Shown piece after piece: positions 52,446-60,411 of a stretch of DNA of 64,000 nt. Position numbers and translations under genes: made by a program. Positions within the stretch are counted from its first letter, which is position 1. Each line of letters opens with the position of its first letter. This DNA is from a cyanobacterium endosymbiont of Rhopalodia gibberula. Its GTDB lineage: Bacteria; Cyanobacteriota; Cyanobacteriia; Cyanobacteriales; Microcystaceae. The stretch spans positions 2,827,740 through 2,891,739 of the forward strand of contig NZ_AP018341.1 in the NCBI RefSeq assembly GCF_003574135.1. The letters run 5' to 3'. Under the pieces are notes generated by a model. That model was not told the origin of the DNA, did no database searches, and saw only the letters and a program-made list of their open reading frames with translations.

Positions 52446-53408
52446 ATGACTAATGTTCTCTGGCTTCAGGGTGGTGCCTGCAGTGGGAATACTATATCTT
52501 TTCTCAACGCAGAAGAGCCTACTCTTGTAGACCTAGTTACGGATTTTGATATCAATATTCTCTGGCATCCCTCCCTAGGACTAGAATTAGGGGATAGCTT
52601 GCAACAACTCCTAAATGACTGTATTAGTGGGAAAATTGCTGTTGATATACTTGTGTTTGAGGGAACTGTTGTCAACGCCCCTCATGGAAGTGGAGAGTGG
52701 AACCGGTTTGCTGGCCGTCCTATGAAAAACTGGTTAGCAGACTTGTCTAAGGTTGCAGGGTTCGTAGTTGCAGTAGGGGACTGTGCCACCTATGGCGGTA
52801 TTCCTGCTATGGCCCCCAACCCTAGCGAGTCGGTTGGACTCCAGTTTCTCAAGCGCAAAAAAGGGGGAGCTTTAGGAGTTGAATACCGTTCTCAAGCGGG
52901 CTTACCTGTCATTAATATTCCAGGTTGTCCAGCCCATCCCGACTGGATTTCTCAAATCCTAGTCGCGGTGGCCACAGGACGAGTAGGAGATATCACTCTC
53001 GATAAATTCCATCGTCCCGAAACTTTTTTTAAGTCCTTTACCCAGACGGGTTGCACTCGTAATATGCATTTCAACTATAAATCGAGTACCCAGGAATTTG
53101 GACAGCGCACCGGATGTCTTTTCTATGACATGGGCTGTCGTGGACCTATGACTCATTCTCCTTGTAATAGAATCTTATGGAATAGAGTTTCCTCCAAAAC
53201 TCGTGTTGGAATGCCGTGTTTAGGGTGTACCGAACCTGAGTTCCCCTTCTATGATTTGAAACCAGGAACAGTGTTTAAGACTCGAACAGTCATGGGCGTT
53301 CCCAAGGACTTACCCCCGCAAGTTAACAAGAAAGATTATGCCGTAATGACAGTTATGGCTAAAAATACTAGTCCGTCTTGGGCTGATGATGATATGTTCA
53401 TTGTCTAA
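52446..53408 (+). CDS. hupS: [NiFe] uptake hydrogenase small subunit
   Basis: The iron-sulfur subunit of the H2-consuming uptake hydrogenase, which recovers electrons from hydrogen released by nitrogenase. The 320-residue protein lacks the Tat signal of proteobacterial homologues, as is normal in cyanobacteria. Cluster ligands are visible: GGACSGN near residue 10, VGDCATYGG, PGCPAHPDW (proximal cluster), CTRNMHF, GCLFYDMGCRGP and SPCNRILWN, and GMPCLGCTEPEFPF (distal and medial clusters). It is 86 bases upstream of hupL with a small hairpin between. Intact, implying active H2 recycling and so ongoing N2 fixation. Maturation genes (hyp, hupW) are not in the window. Confidence 0.97.
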   Translation: MTNVLWLQGGACSGNTISFLNAEEPTLVDLVTDFDINILWHPSLGLELGDSLQQLLNDCISGKIAVDILVFEGTVVNAPHGSGEWNRFAGRPMKNWLADLSKVAGFVVAVGDCATYGGIPAMAPNPSESVGLQFLKRKKGGALGVEYRSQAGLPVINIPGCPAHPDWISQILVAVATGRVGDITLDKFHRPETFFKSFTQTGCTRNMHFNYKSSTQEFGQRTGCLFYDMGCRGPMTHSPCNRILWNRVSSKTRVGMPCLGCTEPEFPFYDLKPGTVFKTRTVMGVPKDLPPQVNKKDYAVMTVMAKNTSPSWADDDMFIV

Positions 53409-53494: not shown

Positions 53495-55090
53495 ATGGCA
53501 ATTAAAACATTAGAACTGTCTCCTGTTGGAAGAGTTGAAGGAGATTTGGATGTACGTGTAGATATTGAGGACGGAAGGGTAGTTAATGCCTGGACTAAAG
53601 CGGAATTGTTTCGGGGATTTGAGGTGATTTTAAAAGGAAAAGATCCTCAGTCCGGCTTGATTGTTACTCCTCGTATCTGCGGAATTTGCGGGGCATCTCA
53701 CCTCACTTGCGCTTCTTGGGCTTTGGACACAATCTGGAAAACCGAAGTTCCCCGTAACGCTATTTTAGCCAGAAATTTAGGGCAATTAGTAGAAACTATT
53801 CAAAGTCATCCCCGGCATTTTTATGCTCTTTATGCAATTGACTTAACCAACAAAAAATATAAAAATAGTCCTTTCTACGAAGAAGCCTGTAAACGTTTTA
53901 GTGCATTTACTGGAACATCGTATGAATTAGCTATTACTATCTCAGCTAAACCAGTAGAATTGTATGCCCTCTTTGGCGGACAATGGCCTCATTCTAGCTA
54001 TATGGTTCCTGGAGGCGTAATGTGTGCGCCAACTCTAACAGATGTTACACGGGGTTGGGGCATCATGGAGTATTTTCGTACTAACTGGTTAGAACCAGTT
54101 TGGTTAGGATGTTCTTTAGAACGCTATGAAAGAATTAAAACCTACGAAGATTTCCTAGAATGGTTAGAGGAGAGTCCCAATCATGCTAATTCTGACCTTG
54201 GTTTCTATTGGAGAATGGGCATAGACATTGGTTTAGATAAATATGGTCAAGGCCCTGGACGTTATCTTACCTGGGGTTATCTCCCCCACGAAGATAGATA
54301 TCAAAAACCCACCATCGAAAGTCGCAATGCTGCGGTCATTATGAAAGCAGGTGTTTATGATAGCTTTACTGATACCCATCGTATGGTAGACCATACCTTT
54401 GCTCGTGAGAATACAAGTCATGCGTGGTATGAAGAAGGAACCTCTGATGTTCATCCATTCTATCGTGAAACTAGACCAAAAGAAAAAAATACAGGGGATT
54501 ATGAGAATAAATACTCCTGGGCAACTGCAGTAAGTCACAAAGATTTAGGTCGGATGGAAGTGGGGTCTCTGGCACGTCAGTTAGTCGCAGGCGGTACAAA
54601 GGGGGAAAGCTTCCAACATTATGATGGATTAATCCTCGATATGTTCAAAAAGATGGGTGGACCCAGCATTCACTTACGAGAGTTTGCACGGATGCACGAA
54701 TCTGTTAAATTGTATCGTGAAGTAGAACGGTGTTTACGAGAATTTAAACTCAATGAACCCTGGTATATCAAACCGACTCCCAAAGATGGTCGGGGTTGGG
54801 GTGGGACCGAAGCCAGTCGTGGTGCACTATGTCACTGGGTTGAAGTAGAAAACGGTAAAATCAAGAACTATCAAGTCATTGCTCCTACTACTTGGAATGT
54901 AGGTCCCAGAGACGGAAAGAATGTCCGTGGACCTATTGAGGAAGCGTTGATAGGTATTCCTATCGAAGATTCCACAAACCCTGTTGAAGTTGGTCATGTA
55001 GCCCGTTCGTTTGATTCTTGTTTAGTATGCACGGTACACGCTCATGATGCGAAAACAGGGAAAGAATTAGCACGGTTTAGAACTTCTTAG
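53495..55090 (+). CDS. hupL: [NiFe] uptake hydrogenase large subunit
   Basis: The catalytic subunit carrying the NiFe(CN)2CO centre. The N-terminal ligand pair is in RICGICGASH and the C-terminal pair in DSCLVCTVH. The sequence continues AHDAKTGKELARFRTS, the C-terminal peptide normally removed by a dedicated endopeptidase after the His once nickel is inserted. The frame can open at 53450, but the ATG at 53495 (MAIKTLELSPVGR), preceded by AGGAAG, matches the family. The mature-type length is about 531 residues. All metal ligands are kept, so the enzyme should be functional. A 58-bp perfect palindrome lies 15 bases after the stop codon. Confidence 0.97.
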   Translation: MAIKTLELSPVGRVEGDLDVRVDIEDGRVVNAWTKAELFRGFEVILKGKDPQSGLIVTPRICGICGASHLTCASWALDTIWKTEVPRNAILARNLGQLVETIQSHPRHFYALYAIDLTNKKYKNSPFYEEACKRFSAFTGTSYELAITISAKPVELYALFGGQWPHSSYMVPGGVMCAPTLTDVTRGWGIMEYFRTNWLEPVWLGCSLERYERIKTYEDFLEWLEESPNHANSDLGFYWRMGIDIGLDKYGQGPGRYLTWGYLPHEDRYQKPTIESRNAAVIMKAGVYDSFTDTHRMVDHTFARENTSHAWYEEGTSDVHPFYRETRPKEKNTGDYENKYSWATAVSHKDLGRMEVGSLARQLVAGGTKGESFQHYDGLILDMFKKMGGPSIHLREFARMHESVKLYREVERCLREFKLNEPWYIKPTPKDGRGWGGTEASRGALCHWVEVENGKIKNYQVIAPTTWNVGPRDGKNVRGPIEEALIGIPIEDSTNPVEVGHVARSFDSCLVCTVHAHDAKTGKELARFRTS

Positions 55091-55105: not shown

Positions 55106-55163
55106 CCGTAGATAGCTAGTAGGTGCCTTAGACCGGTCTAAGGCACCTACTAGCTATCTACGG
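55106..55163. terminator. 58-bp perfect palindrome after hupL
   Basis: The 29 bases from 55106 to 55134 are the exact reverse complement of 55135-55163, with no spacer; the centre reads GACCGGTC. As RNA it would form a very stable stem and is well placed to end or stabilise the hupSL transcript. There is no T-run. As DNA it could extrude a cruciform. Confidence 0.75.
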
Positions 55164-55980
55164 TATATGTAAATCTAAGTTCACATTCCAATTAGGAATA
55201 ATATTTATCTAATCTACCTCACTCCCAACTAAACATAACAAACTTCCTTGAAAGTGTCCTGAGAAAAGTGACTTCCCTCATAGTCATACCTTGTTCGGCG
55301 ACAGAATCTATTGTTTCCCTTGTTTATAACAAAATTATATATATTGGCTTTTATTAATTTTACTTTGATGTATAAAGATGTAAAATGAGACATGATTAAT
55401 AGTGCAATGTAAAAGACAACTCATGAGTTGCTCGTATTCAGAAGTTTTCACAGAAAAATTTCTGAATACGAGCGGGTTCGCGGTATGATTACACCAGCGT
55501 GTTAGGAGATTGTATTGAAAACTCGCAAAGTTTTCCTGTGGTGTTAGACTGTTTTATGGTTCTACTTGGTCCACCACTAAAAATAAATGAAATGGCAAGA
55601 ACTGGTTTTTTATCTAAAAAATCAGTTCTTTGGGGTCCTTATCCTTTCTCATGAGGGGGATTCTAAGACGAGTTTGTTAATTAGAATCCTAAAACAAGCC
55701 ATTTTTGATAAATAATGATTAGAAGGATCTATAGAAAAATATTAAAGTTTTTTAGTGGATGGGTGACAGTAAGTTTTTCGATTGATCATCATTGTTTAGC
55801 ATATCGTACACCAACCTTTAATATTTTGTCCATACATAGGCTTTCACAGGGTAATGAATTCGATGATTGAACAAAGAGTGAGACGATAACCAGATAAGAT
55901 TGAAACAGACTCAACAGTTAAGATATTTGCGACCATTGAGTTGAGTGACTCTAAAAAAACAATACGGAGAAGGAGGACTT
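55164..55980. other. Gap with a cluster of three stems
   Basis: The part 55164-55430 shows nothing coding. From 55431 to 55689 three stems occur in a row: 13 bp (55431-55443 / 55460-55472), about 15 bp with one G:T pair (55597-55630), and 9 bp (55658-55666 / 55681-55689). No protein-like frame covers them. A structured non-coding RNA is possible. 55690-55960 is plain AT-rich sequence. Confidence 0.45.
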
Positions 55981-58506
55981 ATGCGTGCAGTGCTAATGGC
56001 TGGGGGATCAGGAACTCGGTTACGACCCCTAACTTGCGATCTGCCTAAGCCAATGGTTCCCATCCTAAATCGACCCATTGCCGAACATATCATTAATTTA
56101 TTAAAACGCAATAACATTCGAGAAGTCATTGCCACGCTCTACTATCTCCCGGATGTAATGCGGGACTACTTCCAAGATGGCAGTGATTTTGGGGTAGAAA
56201 TGACCTACGCGGTAGAAGATGATCAACCACTAGGAACAGCGGGTTGTGTCAAAAATATTGAAGAACTCCTTGATGATACTTTTGTAGTGATTAGTGGAGA
56301 TAGTATCACAGATTTTGATCTCCAAAAGGCGATAACTTTTCATAAACAAAAAAAATCTAAAGCCACCCTAGTCCTGACCCGCGTTCCTAACCCCGTTGAA
56401 TTTGGAGTAGTCATTATCGATAAAGACCAACGAATTAACCGTTTTTTAGAAAAACCTTCCACTAGCGAAATTTTCTCGGATACCGTCAACACTGGAACCT
56501 ATATCCTAGAACCTGAAGTTCTACAATACCTTCCTGATAATGAAGAATCGGACTTTTCTAAAGATCTCTTTCCGCTTCTCCTCGAAAAAAGTGAACCCAT
56601 ATACGGGTTTATCGCCGAGGGATACTGGTGTGATGTTGGAAATTTAGAAACTTATCGGCAAGCTCAATATGATGCTCTAGAAGGAAAAGTGATTTTAGAT
56701 TTTGCCTATGAAGAGACATCCCCTGGATTTTGGTTAGGACAAAATACTCATATTGACCCCACGGCCAAAATTACTTCCCCCGTCCTTATCGGTCACAATT
56801 GTCGCATTGGTCCGGAGGTCGTTATAGAAAAAGGAAGTGTGATCGGCGATAATGTCACCGTTGGCGCAGGGGCAGACCTAAAACGTCCCATTTTGTGGAA
56901 TGGAGTTACCATTGGAGACGAATCTTATCTAGCTGCCTGTGTCATTGCCAGAGGAACACGGGTTGATCGGCGTGCCCAAATCCTAGAAGGGGCGGTGGTG
57001 GGTGCCTTGTCCACGATTGGAGAAGAAGCCCAGATTAGCTCAAGTGTTCGTGTTTGGCCTAGCAAACGCATCGAATCGGGAGCTATCTTGAATATCAATT
57101 TGATTTGGGGCAATATAGCCCATCGCAATTTATTTGGTCAAAGAGGTGTAACAGGACTAGCCAACATCGATATTACCCCTGAATTTGCTGTTAAATTAGG
57201 GGCAGCCTACGGTTCAACCTTAAAACTTGGTTCTCAGGTCGTCGTCTCCCGTGACCAGCGTAGTGTCTCTCGTATGGTTAGCCGTTCTTTGATTGCTGGT
57301 TTGATGTCTGTGGGTATCGATATTCAAAACCTAGAAGCTACAGCCATTCCCATTACCCGTATTCTCACCCCGAAATTAGGGGTTACTGGCGGAGTTCATC
57401 TACGGGCTCATCCAGATCGCCCTGATCATATCCTCATTGAATTTTTTGATGAACAGGGGATTAATATCTCTAAATCTAAGGAAAAGAAAATTGAAGGAGC
57501 TTATCTTAAAGAAGACCTACGACGGGTAGGAATCTCGGAGATTGGTGATATGTCTTACCCCGCTCAAATTATTGAAAACTATCGCAACACTTTTGAAACC
57601 CAACTCAATGTAGAGGCACTTCGCCATAGTGGATCGAAAGTTGTTATTGACTATGTTTACGGGGTTTCAGGAGCTATTCTACCCCAACTATTGACGAAGT
57701 TTGGCTGTGATGCAGTGGTTTTGAATGCCAGTTTACGACAAACCTCGGTCTCTAACGAAGAACGAGAAGCCTTGTTACACCAACTAGGCCAAGTGGTGGA
57801 AGCAGTTACAGCTAATTTAGGAGTTCAGGTAACTGCCAATGGGGAGCAGTTTATCCTGGTGGATGAGTCAGGATTACCCATTCGCGGAGAACTGCTTACA
57901 GCATTGATGGTGAATACTATTTTTACTGCCTCTCCTCGTAGTACTGTGGTGGTCCCGGTAGAAGCATCTAGTGCCGTCGAACAAATTGCCCGCCGCCATG
58001 ATGGTAAAGTGATTCGCACTAAAGCCAACCCCACCGCTTTGATGGAAGCGTCTCAAACTAACCCTAATGTGTCTTTGGGGGGAAGTGGGGATATGGGCTT
58101 TATTTTTCCTCAACTACACCCAGGATTTGATGCAATGTTCGGTATTGCTAAATTAATAGAAATGTTGACCATTCAAGAGCGATCACTAGTACAAATTCGA
58201 GCTGAATTACCACGAGTATGCCATAAATCCTATTCAGTTCGCTGTCCTTGGAAAGTTAAAGGATCTTTGATGCGTTATCTAGTGGAAAATCACTCTCCAG
58301 AACAGCTAGAATTGATTGACGGAGTAAAAGTTATTAATCCTCAAAACGATAATTGGGTTCTTATTCTACCGGATGCAGAAGAACCTGTAGTTCACATTTT
58401 TGCTAATAGTGATGATCGTGAATGGGTAGATACGTCTATCAAAGATTACCGTCAAAAAGTTCAAAATTTTGTTGAGCAAGAACAAGGAGAAACAGTCAGT
58501 ATGTAA
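55981..58506 (+). CDS. Nucleotidyltransferase-phosphomannomutase fusion (ManC-like)
   Basis: A cyanobacterial fusion of 841 residues. Residues 1-235 form an NTP-transferase (GGSGTRLRPLT, residues 8-18; later GYWCDVGNLETY) of the mannose-1-phosphate guanylyltransferase/glucose-1-phosphate type. Residues about 245-370 form left-handed beta-helix hexapeptide repeats. About 385-830 is a phosphomannomutase/phosphoglucomutase-like region, beginning RGVTGLANIDITPEFAVKLG. Where active mutases carry the SHNP phosphoserine loop, this protein reads VVSRDQRSVSRM, so mutase activity is doubtful. The strong GGAGAAGGAGG before the ATG at 55981 fixes the start. The upstream in-frame ATG at 55945 is unlikely. 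Role: nucleotide-sugar supply for envelope polysaccharide. Confidence 0.9.
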   Translation: MRAVLMAGGSGTRLRPLTCDLPKPMVPILNRPIAEHIINLLKRNNIREVIATLYYLPDVMRDYFQDGSDFGVEMTYAVEDDQPLGTAGCVKNIEELLDDTFVVISGDSITDFDLQKAITFHKQKKSKATLVLTRVPNPVEFGVVIIDKDQRINRFLEKPSTSEIFSDTVNTGTYILEPEVLQYLPDNEESDFSKDLFPLLLEKSEPIYGFIAEGYWCDVGNLETYRQAQYDALEGKVILDFAYEETSPGFWLGQNTHIDPTAKITSPVLIGHNCRIGPEVVIEKGSVIGDNVTVGAGADLKRPILWNGVTIGDESYLAACVIARGTRVDRRAQILEGAVVGALSTIGEEAQISSSVRVWPSKRIESGAILNINLIWGNIAHRNLFGQRGVTGLANIDITPEFAVKLGAAYGSTLKLGSQVVVSRDQRSVSRMVSRSLIAGLMSVGIDIQNLEATAIPITRILTPKLGVTGGVHLRAHPDRPDHILIEFFDEQGINISKSKEKKIEGAYLKEDLRRVGISEIGDMSYPAQIIENYRNTFETQLNVEALRHSGSKVVIDYVYGVSGAILPQLLTKFGCDAVVLNASLRQTSVSNEEREALLHQLGQVVEAVTANLGVQVTANGEQFILVDESGLPIRGELLTALMVNTIFTASPRSTVVVPVEASSAVEQIARRHDGKVIRTKANPTALMEASQTNPNVSLGGSGDMGFIFPQLHPGFDAMFGIAKLIEMLTIQERSLVQIRAELPRVCHKSYSVRCPWKVKGSLMRYLVENHSPEQLELIDGVKVINPQNDNWVLILPDAEEPVVHIFANSDDREWVDTSIKDYRQKVQNFVEQEQGETVSM

Positions 58507-59058: not shown

Positions 59059-59075
59059 GGTGGGCGTTGCCCACC
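59059..59075. terminator. GGTGGG-type hairpin after ssb
   Basis: 7-bp stem GGTGGGC / GCCCACC with a 3-base loop, 35 bases after the ssb stop. The third copy of the same hairpin core in the window, again just after a gene. No T-run. Confidence 0.55.
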
Positions 59076-59205: not shown

Positions 59206-59262
59206 AGCTTAGAAGTTGCCAAACAACAATATATTACCTTGTTGTTTGGCAACTTCTAAGCT
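59206..59262. terminator. 24-bp perfect inverted repeat
   Basis: Arms at 59206-59229 and 59239-59262 are exact complements around a 9-base loop; TTACTTAAAAA follows. It lies between the convergent ssb (plus) and the 53-residue ORF (minus), so a bidirectional terminator is the simplest reading. Confidence 0.7.
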
Positions 59263-59431: not shown

Positions 59432-59593
59432 TTAAATATCCGTTCCTACTTCGGACGCTAGTCTGTATCGCATAGAAAGTTGGCGATTTTGTTGCTTTCG
59501 GCGGTCCTGGCTGATCAGAAAACGCAATTGTTCCGCAACAGACAGCAAGCTATCTTTGGACTTAAAACTAAGACAATTATTATGAGATTTCAT
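59432..59593 (-). CDS. 53-residue small basic protein, uncharacterised
   Basis: A short gene with an excellent Shine-Dalgarno (GAAGGAGG four bases before the ATG at 59593). The product is hydrophilic and basic: a Ser/Lys-rich N-terminus (MKSHNNCLSFKSKDS), a predicted amphipathic helix LLSVAEQLRFLIS, then QDRRKQQNRQLSMRYRL and a short tail. The Arg/Gln-rich half suggests RNA, DNA or protein binding. I do not recognise a named family. Base composition is less AT-rich than the surrounding gaps, and the frame is clean from start to stop, unlike nearby fossils. Stems flank it on both sides (59206 and 59384 downstream, 59837 upstream). Confidence 0.65.
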   Translation of the reverse strand: MKSHNNCLSFKSKDSLLSVAEQLRFLISQDRRKQQNRQLSMRYRLASEVGTDI

Positions 59594-59836: not shown

Positions 59837-59887
59837 AAAGTTATCTCGATACTTACCAAATATTTTGGTAAGTATCGAGATAACTTT
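59837..59887. terminator. 24-bp perfect hairpin
   Basis: Arms 59837-59860 and 59864-59887 are exact complements with a 3-base TAT loop. On the minus strand it follows the dedA pseudogene immediately and would have been its terminator. The A-run before and T-rich bases after make it intrinsic-like in both directions. Confidence 0.7.
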
Positions 59888-59889
59888 CA

Positions 59890-60411
59890 TCAAAGATTTG
59901 GAAAAAATAACAGTGCTGTTCCATAATTGAAAGCATCTATTGTGGCAAAGTATTCCCTAATATAATAAGCAGCAGTCGTTTTCTGGAGGCTATAATAAGG
60001 CATTTTAGTAATCCCCGTCATGGGTCCATCAAAAATTCGTAACAACGCTATAAAATGTCCAAAAAATACAGCAACCACCGCATTATCACTAAATTGTGTT
60101 TCTGCTTCCTCTGATTTTTTTTGAGGAGTTCTAAACAAACGCCTAAATACTGATAAAACTGCCCAACCTCCTAACCGACCAATCCAATAGCCAAAATTAT
60201 CGCCGAGAACCGCTCCTGCAGTTGCTATGCCTACCATTGTCTAATAATTTAAATTTCCACTTCCAGCTAGGACTCCTCCGATAATGATAATAGTCTCCCC
60301 AGGAATGGGAATTCCTGCATTCTCTGAGGTAATACCGATAAACACTGCCCAGTAACCATATTGACGCGCAATTTCTTGTATGTTATCCAGCGACAACAGT
60401 CCCACAATCAT
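59890..60411 (-). pseudogene. DedA family membrane protein, broken
   Basis: From an ATG at 60411 the frame reads a normal DedA N-terminus (ARQYGYWAVFIGITSENAGI, then PIPGETIIIIGGVLAGSGN) up to a TAG at 60241-60243, where relatives have Trp (NYW). The same frame continues beyond the stop with GAVLGDNFGYWIGRLGG and later GHFIALLRIFDGPMTGITKM, the second conserved DedA block; after PYY the match fades and the protein ends early. DedA proteins are undecaprenyl-phosphate/lipid flippases or related transporters. One nonsense mutation plus a degraded C-terminus makes a working product unlikely. Confidence 0.8.

Follow-up and report, generated by a model that had tools for sequence, protein, structure and literature searches.

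A perfect 58-bp palindrome behind hupL of a Rhopalodia spheroid body is probably a corrected older hairpin, and belongs to a class of perfect hairpins abundant in symbiont genomes

The uptake hydrogenase genes in the cyanobacterial endosymbiont of Rhopalodia gibberula (RgSB) are followed by a long palindrome in which every base is paired, and the locus raises the question of how this structure became perfect and whether its perfection serves the operon in front of it. The window, meaning the whole stretch of 64,000 nucleotides that was analysed, belongs to a genome of 3,020,309 bases in a single contig; RgSB is described as having a single circular chromosome of 3.02 Mb (PMC5638926). The features concerned are listed below, with two Epithemia endosymbionts, EcSB and EtSB, as points of comparison.

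52446..53408, + strand: hupS, hydrogenase small subunit (Pfam PF01058 and PF14720)
53495..55090, + strand: hupL, NiFe uptake hydrogenase large subunit (Pfam PF00374, 265 bits)
55106..55163, no strand: perfect palindrome, arms 29+29, 0-nt spacer, 0 mismatches (repeat comparison and fold)
55106..55134, + strand: left arm, 29 nt, the putative rewritten copy (outer part differs from the EcSB and EtSB left arms)
55135..55163, + strand: right arm, 29 nt, the putative donor (CTAGCTATCTA common to the window and EtSB)
55430..55473, no strand: imperfect hairpin downstream of hupL, 19-nt arms, 95%, loop 6 (repeat comparison)
55981..58506, + strand: nucleotidyltransferase-phosphomannomutase fusion, the next same-strand gene, about 0.8 kb downstream (Pfam)
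59206..59262, no strand: perfect 24-nt arms around a loop of 9, same class of hairpin as behind hupL; the EcSB counterpart is imperfect
59837..59887, no strand: perfect 24-nt arms around a loop of 3, same class again; EcSB retains the left arm and not the right

The gene at 53495..55090 is presumed to be hupL on the basis of the first-pass annotation and general knowledge; its NCBIfam matches fall under their cut-offs. The stop codon ends at 55090 and the palindrome starts 15 nt behind it. The annotation had described a perfect 58-bp palindrome with neither spacer nor T-run, and the two arms of 29 nt are indeed 100% complementary. No U-tract follows the stem, TATATGTAAATC comes next, and a terminator scan finds no terminator-like site there, so that the absence of a T-run stands. 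At the GC content of the window (0.348, pair probability 0.273), about 3e-12 such palindromes are expected by chance per 64 kb. Folded as RNA, the palindrome reaches -51.5 kcal/mol (z -10.3 versus dinucleotide shuffles), and its perfect arms are the longest both among the 18 inverted-repeat pairs of the window (arms at least 16, at most 60 nt apart) and among the 38 perfect hairpins in 400 kb of its own genome. It is present in a single copy that matches itself on both strands. Rfam matches at this position all lie below the gathering score, and a search for plasmid relatives gave no match.

Some features around the hairpin at 59837-59887 are recorded as well. This hairpin begins 2 nt past the stop codon of a 115-aa ORF (59890-60237, - strand) with a VTT (DedA-type) domain just under the Pfam cut-off and partial profile coverage, perhaps a gene remnant. 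A glutamine riboswitch (RF01739, 59629-59693, - strand, 54.2 bits versus a gathering score of 35) is followed by a 53-aa ORF (about 59432-59593, - strand) with a weak match to IF7A, the glutamine synthetase inactivation factor (21.6 bits, cut-off 70).

The reading that we prefer, with a probability of about 0.6, is that hupSL was ancestrally followed by a transcript-end hairpin, which quasi-palindrome correction, i.e. template switching, made perfect and longer. DNA polymerase would stall at an imperfect inverted repeat, and the nascent strand, folded back on itself, would take its own first arm (or the other new strand) as template; the second arm would thereby come to match the first as an exact reverse complement. 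Behind hupL, the probable donor would be the right arm, and the left arm the rewritten one. As RNA, the product would still be a very stable stem marking or protecting the 3' end of the hupSL mRNA, perfection as such would not be selected for, and the identical process would yield many perfect hairpins genome-wide. These may persist because the non-coding DNA of the genome is large and weakly constrained.

Judged by hupL, the nearest named relatives are EcSB (97%), EtSB (94%) and Cyanobacterium sp. uoEpiScrs1 (EpiScrs, 94%). Alignment with the window reveals a homologous, imperfect hairpin behind hupL in both EcSB and EtSB, with the core GGTACTTTA/TAAAGTACC present in each. In place of the AGTAGG of the window, the left arms of EcSB and EtSB carry TTTTGG; in the right arm, the window and EtSB have CTAGCTATCTA in common. 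Compared with EcSB, identity is 0.55 in the left and 0.69 in the right arm of the window, versus 0.90 and 0.83 in the flanks; nine unpolarised sites are right-retained and five left-retained. By parsimony, the left arm would be the one rewritten, with the right as its template, but just two sites are cleanly polarised, both in agreement with this direction. For the hairpin at 59837-59887, the corresponding identities to EcSB are 0.88 (left arm) and 0.62 (right arm). In EpiScrs the corresponding position behind hupL is occupied by a strong hairpin of unrelated sequence (z -8.0). To judge from these alignments, the place and the presence of a hairpin are kept among the relatives, and the letters are not; the refuting condition named in the first-pass annotation, lack of conservation in relatives, thus receives a divided answer. 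A T-rich stretch (at least 6 T in the 10 bases past the stem) is found at 7 of 11 free-living hupL loci; the four spheroid bodies have 2-3 T there.

In several free-living relatives (e.g. loci L036, L039, L040, L041 and L055) the hairpin behind hupL is GGTGGGC-N-GCCCACC. This motif has 0-2 copies per symbiont sample, and one copy is left in the window (59059-59075).

An unlikely but serious alternative is that RNA selection alone was at work, and that a U-less terminator or exonuclease block was kept and perfected by compensatory substitutions because, to our knowledge, cyanobacteria lack Rho. It is favoured by the Crocosphaera/spheroid-body/UCYN-A group: in all 17 distinct loci the best hairpin begins 1-14 nt after the hupL stop, and in 15 the fold has a z of -2 or lower against mononucleotide shuffles (24/35 of all loci). 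The unrelated strong stem of EpiScrs points the same way, as do two core pairs at hupL in which both bases differ from those of EcSB and EtSB. For the preferred reading as well, the stem at the same place in 17/17 loci makes a transcript-end hairpin plausible, as had been proposed with the idea that the palindrome protects the hupSL mRNA. The stem is located where the operon transcript should end, and by analogy it could block exonucleases. U-less hairpins in Escherichia coli are thought to do so at processed ends, and in Synechococcus a strong upstream structure is found at just 75 of 163 U-less defined ends, according to the parts of PMC13289151 consulted; a role at the 3' end is therefore plausible and unproven.

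The first-pass annotation had considered perfect pairing of this length to be rarely seen in an ordinary terminator. For this genome rarity does not hold: perfect hairpins with 24-nt arms occur twice more within 5 kb of the palindrome, and a census of 400 kb of the window's genome (G000) and of five relatives (loop 0-12, low-complexity arms removed first, the samples representing 8-28% of each of these six main genomes) gave, for arms of at least 16, 18 and 20 nt, 38, 25 and 19 perfect hairpins in G000. The corresponding counts per 400 kb were 42, 31 and 22 in EcSB, 48, 27 and 20 in EtSB, and 43, 35 and 21 in EpiScrs. The genome G013, called UCYN-A-like here by its size class (1.4-1.5 Mb) and relationship, gave 20, 15 and 12 with a longest arm of 41, and its free-living-size sister G006 gave 0, 0 and 0 with a longest arm of 15 ('free-living' being likewise a label inferred from size, 3.7-7.8 Mb, and relationship). 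One Markov-shuffled copy per sample contained no hairpin with arms of at least 16. In smaller samples, G021 had 7, 6 and 6 perfect hairpins in 80 kb, and seven free-living genomes other than G006 combined had 1, 0 and 0 in 320 kb. Scaled to non-coding DNA (ORFs of at least 80 aa masked), the rate of G000 predicts 26.5 hairpins in the eight free-living samples, versus one seen (P 9e-11). Even a short, partial second match within the same 400 kb exists for no more than 15 of 191 hairpins, and the hairpins are therefore not copies of a repeat. Thus a search for further copies or related palindromes finds no second copy of the hupL sequence and many other perfect hairpins, perfection is not supported as a mark special to hupL, and the class of hairpins is of greater interest than the one hairpin at hupL.

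The placement of these hairpins tells against RNA selection as a general account, since most are not close to gene ends. Within 60 nt of a 3' end we find 6/37 in G000, 9/40 in EcSB, 4/48 in EtSB and 4/41 in EpiScrs (23/166 for the four spheroid bodies), versus 7-12% of random positions, and the distribution over intergenic types resembles the background. In G013, unlike the spheroid bodies, most are at gene 3' ends (10/16 within 60 nt, versus 20% at random). Hairpins inside ORFs are few, with 1/38 in G000, where ORFs cover 58% of the sample, 2/42 in EcSB, 0/48 in EtSB, 2/43 in EpiScrs and 4/20 in G013. Hairpins whose ortholog has a perfect stem of at least 12 are nearer to gene ends (8/14 versus 15/83 of the rest), which favours RNA selection for that subset. 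Taken together, the conserved minority resemble transcript ends and most of the others do not, whereas in the UCYN-A-like genome most do.

The signature of one-sided copying was then sought over all loci. Of the 171 spheroid-body hairpins with arms of at least 16, 102 have a usable ortholog in another sample; 15 of these orthologs have a perfect stem of at least 12, and the other 87 were scored as lacking one (2 of the 87 being too long to score). In these 87, the worse arm has an identity of 0.63 versus 0.72 in the flanks (p 3e-5) and the better arm 0.79 versus 0.85 (p 0.001), and the arm-to-arm difference exceeds that between the flanks (0.16 versus 0.13, p 0.019). Hairpins lacking a perfect ortholog hence evolve faster than their flanks, contrary to selection on the RNA alone. 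With gaps counted, 457 of 634 sites whose pair is broken in the relative (84 hairpins) agree with one-sided repair, versus 408 ± 7 in shuffles, and 0 of 5000 shuffles reached the observed count. When gaps are left out, the figure is 243 of 350 sites in 65 hairpins versus 234.6 ± 5.5, which is not significant (p 0.08); flank controls stay at the chance level (p 0.71), and 6/56 hairpins are strongly one-sided versus 2/71 flank controls. Polarisation by at least two relatives gives 60 of 76 sites in 24 hairpins versus 54.4 ± 2.7 (p 0.03), and 12 of these 24 hairpins are wholly one-sided; in some of these mechanism tallies, hairpins perfect in two genomes count twice. Overall the one-arm-copied signature appears modest, and at hupL itself it looks mixed. 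Counting against perfection by correction, many of the hairpins may be older perfect stems that have decayed in the relatives.

One hairpin (G001:C1:1875484 in EcSB and G003:C1:1788157 in EtSB) has perfect arms of 25-27 nt in both genomes. Both bases are changed in each of the four pairs by which the two stems differ, and no pair of the shared 25 is broken.

The cleanest sign of template switching among these tests is inversion of the loop with the inner stem kept, seen in 9 of 24 comparisons (14 not inverted, 1 tie) and, when comparisons are grouped by locus, at about 4 of the 10 loci that could be scored. At one of these the inversion is exact and spans 10 bases; the hupL palindrome has no loop to invert. 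Loop inversion supports template switching because it is predicted by that process, as set out in the consulted parts of PMC8794818 and PMC8604942, and not by compensatory substitution. RNA selection predicts neither this nor strict Watson-Crick perfection.

An assembly or amplification artefact, with one arm rewritten by fold-back during whole-genome amplification or short-read assembly, is improbable, although the RgSB DNA was REPLI-g amplified before short-read sequencing (PMC5638926). EcSB and EtSB have homologous imperfect hairpins at the hupL locus, three separately deposited spheroid-body genomes have perfect hairpins at equal density, and an artefact would show no avoidance of ORFs of the kind seen in G000. 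The fold-back objection raised at the outset is unlikely to apply, but the amplification step leaves it some weight.

Two further explanations are very unlikely. An inserted mobile or repetitive palindrome (REP- or MITE-like) might be suspected from the repeated GGTGGGC-N-GCCCACC behind hupL in free-living relatives, of which G006 has 9 copies in 400 kb, but the window palindrome is single, it matches 1 of the 388 genomes of the class (its own), and neither a target duplication nor a family was found; a mobile repeat or conserved site is on these grounds largely refuted. Binding of a dimeric protein to the palindrome as a dyad operator or cruciform, along lines that the first-pass annotation had also suggested, would suit the perfect dyad symmetry, but a sequence-specific site finds no support in letters that differ among relatives and recur in no other of the 388 genomes; moreover, the site lies behind the operon and about 0.8 kb ahead of the next gene, and typical operators are far shorter than 58 nt.

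If quasi-palindrome correction perfected the hairpins, the question remains why symbionts have so many. SbcD, MutS, RecG, RecJ and RecA are above the curated cut-off in 16/16 genomes. SbcC has a match in 16/16, above the cut-off in 13 and below it in both UCYN-A-like genomes and in G043. The main matches of all six are free of internal stops, and loss of any of them as the cause is rejected, since all were found in 16/16 genomes. The gene xseA is present in 3/16 genomes and is missing from the six symbionts and from seven others, including the hairpin-poor G006. A Y-family polymerase domain (PF00817) was found in 0/16 cyanobacteria, and the control Synechococcus elongatus has one. Among the repair genes searched none is missing in symbionts alone, and there is therefore no known cause for the excess, which would come from slackened removal within large unconstrained DNA, or else from an altered factor beyond the genes searched.

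A DNA tree of hupL from 17 genomes places the four spheroid bodies together with the free-living G006, G002 and G005 (support 99/98), and the UCYN-A-like pair falls outside this group; the tree covers one gene, has a long UCYN-A-like stem and includes G013 with its deviating composition. The hairpin-rich state therefore arose at least twice, or free-living branches lost it. As a tentative proposal, to which we give somewhat less than even odds, at least two symbiont lineages, diatom spheroid bodies and UCYN-A, separately came to accumulate long perfect palindromes all over their non-coding DNA via a hairpin-perfecting replication error, with the searched repair genes present. If true, the density of palindromes would mark, at the molecular level, a symbiont that is becoming organelle-like, and transcript ends would have been recruited from some of the new hairpins.

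The hairpins share traits with several known systems. Quasi-palindrome correction, as far as the consulted parts of PMC7202029 (E. coli reporters) and PMC8794818 (RNA hairpins) go, likewise turns imperfect repeats into perfect ones by copying one arm, with loops that can invert; there it concerns reporters and RNA genes, whereas here it would explain a standing excess in symbiont non-coding DNA, seen from species comparison alone. An intrinsic terminator would resemble the palindrome in being a stable stem 15 nt behind a stop codon, where free-living relatives also have a stem, but the window has no U-tract and a much longer stem. The REP-type 3'-end stabilising hairpins of E. coli are also stems lacking a U-tract, at mRNA ends presumed to be processed (PMC13289151, in part), whereas the window palindrome is no repeated sequence. 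Nematomorph mitochondrial genomes are, in the sections of PMC6649704 available, reduced genomes with many long perfect inverted repeats as well, but there the repeats are in coding genes, in contrast to 1/38 in an ORF here. AT-rich symbionts such as Buchnera have short inverted repeats at high frequency, a related finding by a different measure (excerpt of PMC10434271). Among the literature matches listed, no report of a perfect-palindrome excess in spheroid bodies or UCYN-A was found, which is weak evidence of absence; in one of these listings UCYN-A is mentioned by no paper. By word search, PMC12903740 and PMC2246100 contain none of 'palindrom', 'inverted repeat' and 'hairpin', PMC11131595 neither 'palindrom' nor 'hairpin', PMC5638926 no 'palindrom', and the perfect-inverted-repeat census PMC13155455 none of 'endosymbiont', 'symbio' and 'cyanobacteri'.

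For the biology of these symbionts, the finding means that the lineage seems to produce perfect stems by copying error, at a density unmatched in its free-living-size sisters. Long perfect RNA stems are commonly read as proof of function, and the hairpins described here call for caution, as pairing alone is no proof of function in reduced genomes. Template switching would also offer a route for remaking a terminator without base-by-base compensation. The hairpins provide natural material for watching hairpin birth, inversion and loss, and with four comparable spheroid-body genomes the process is directly testable.
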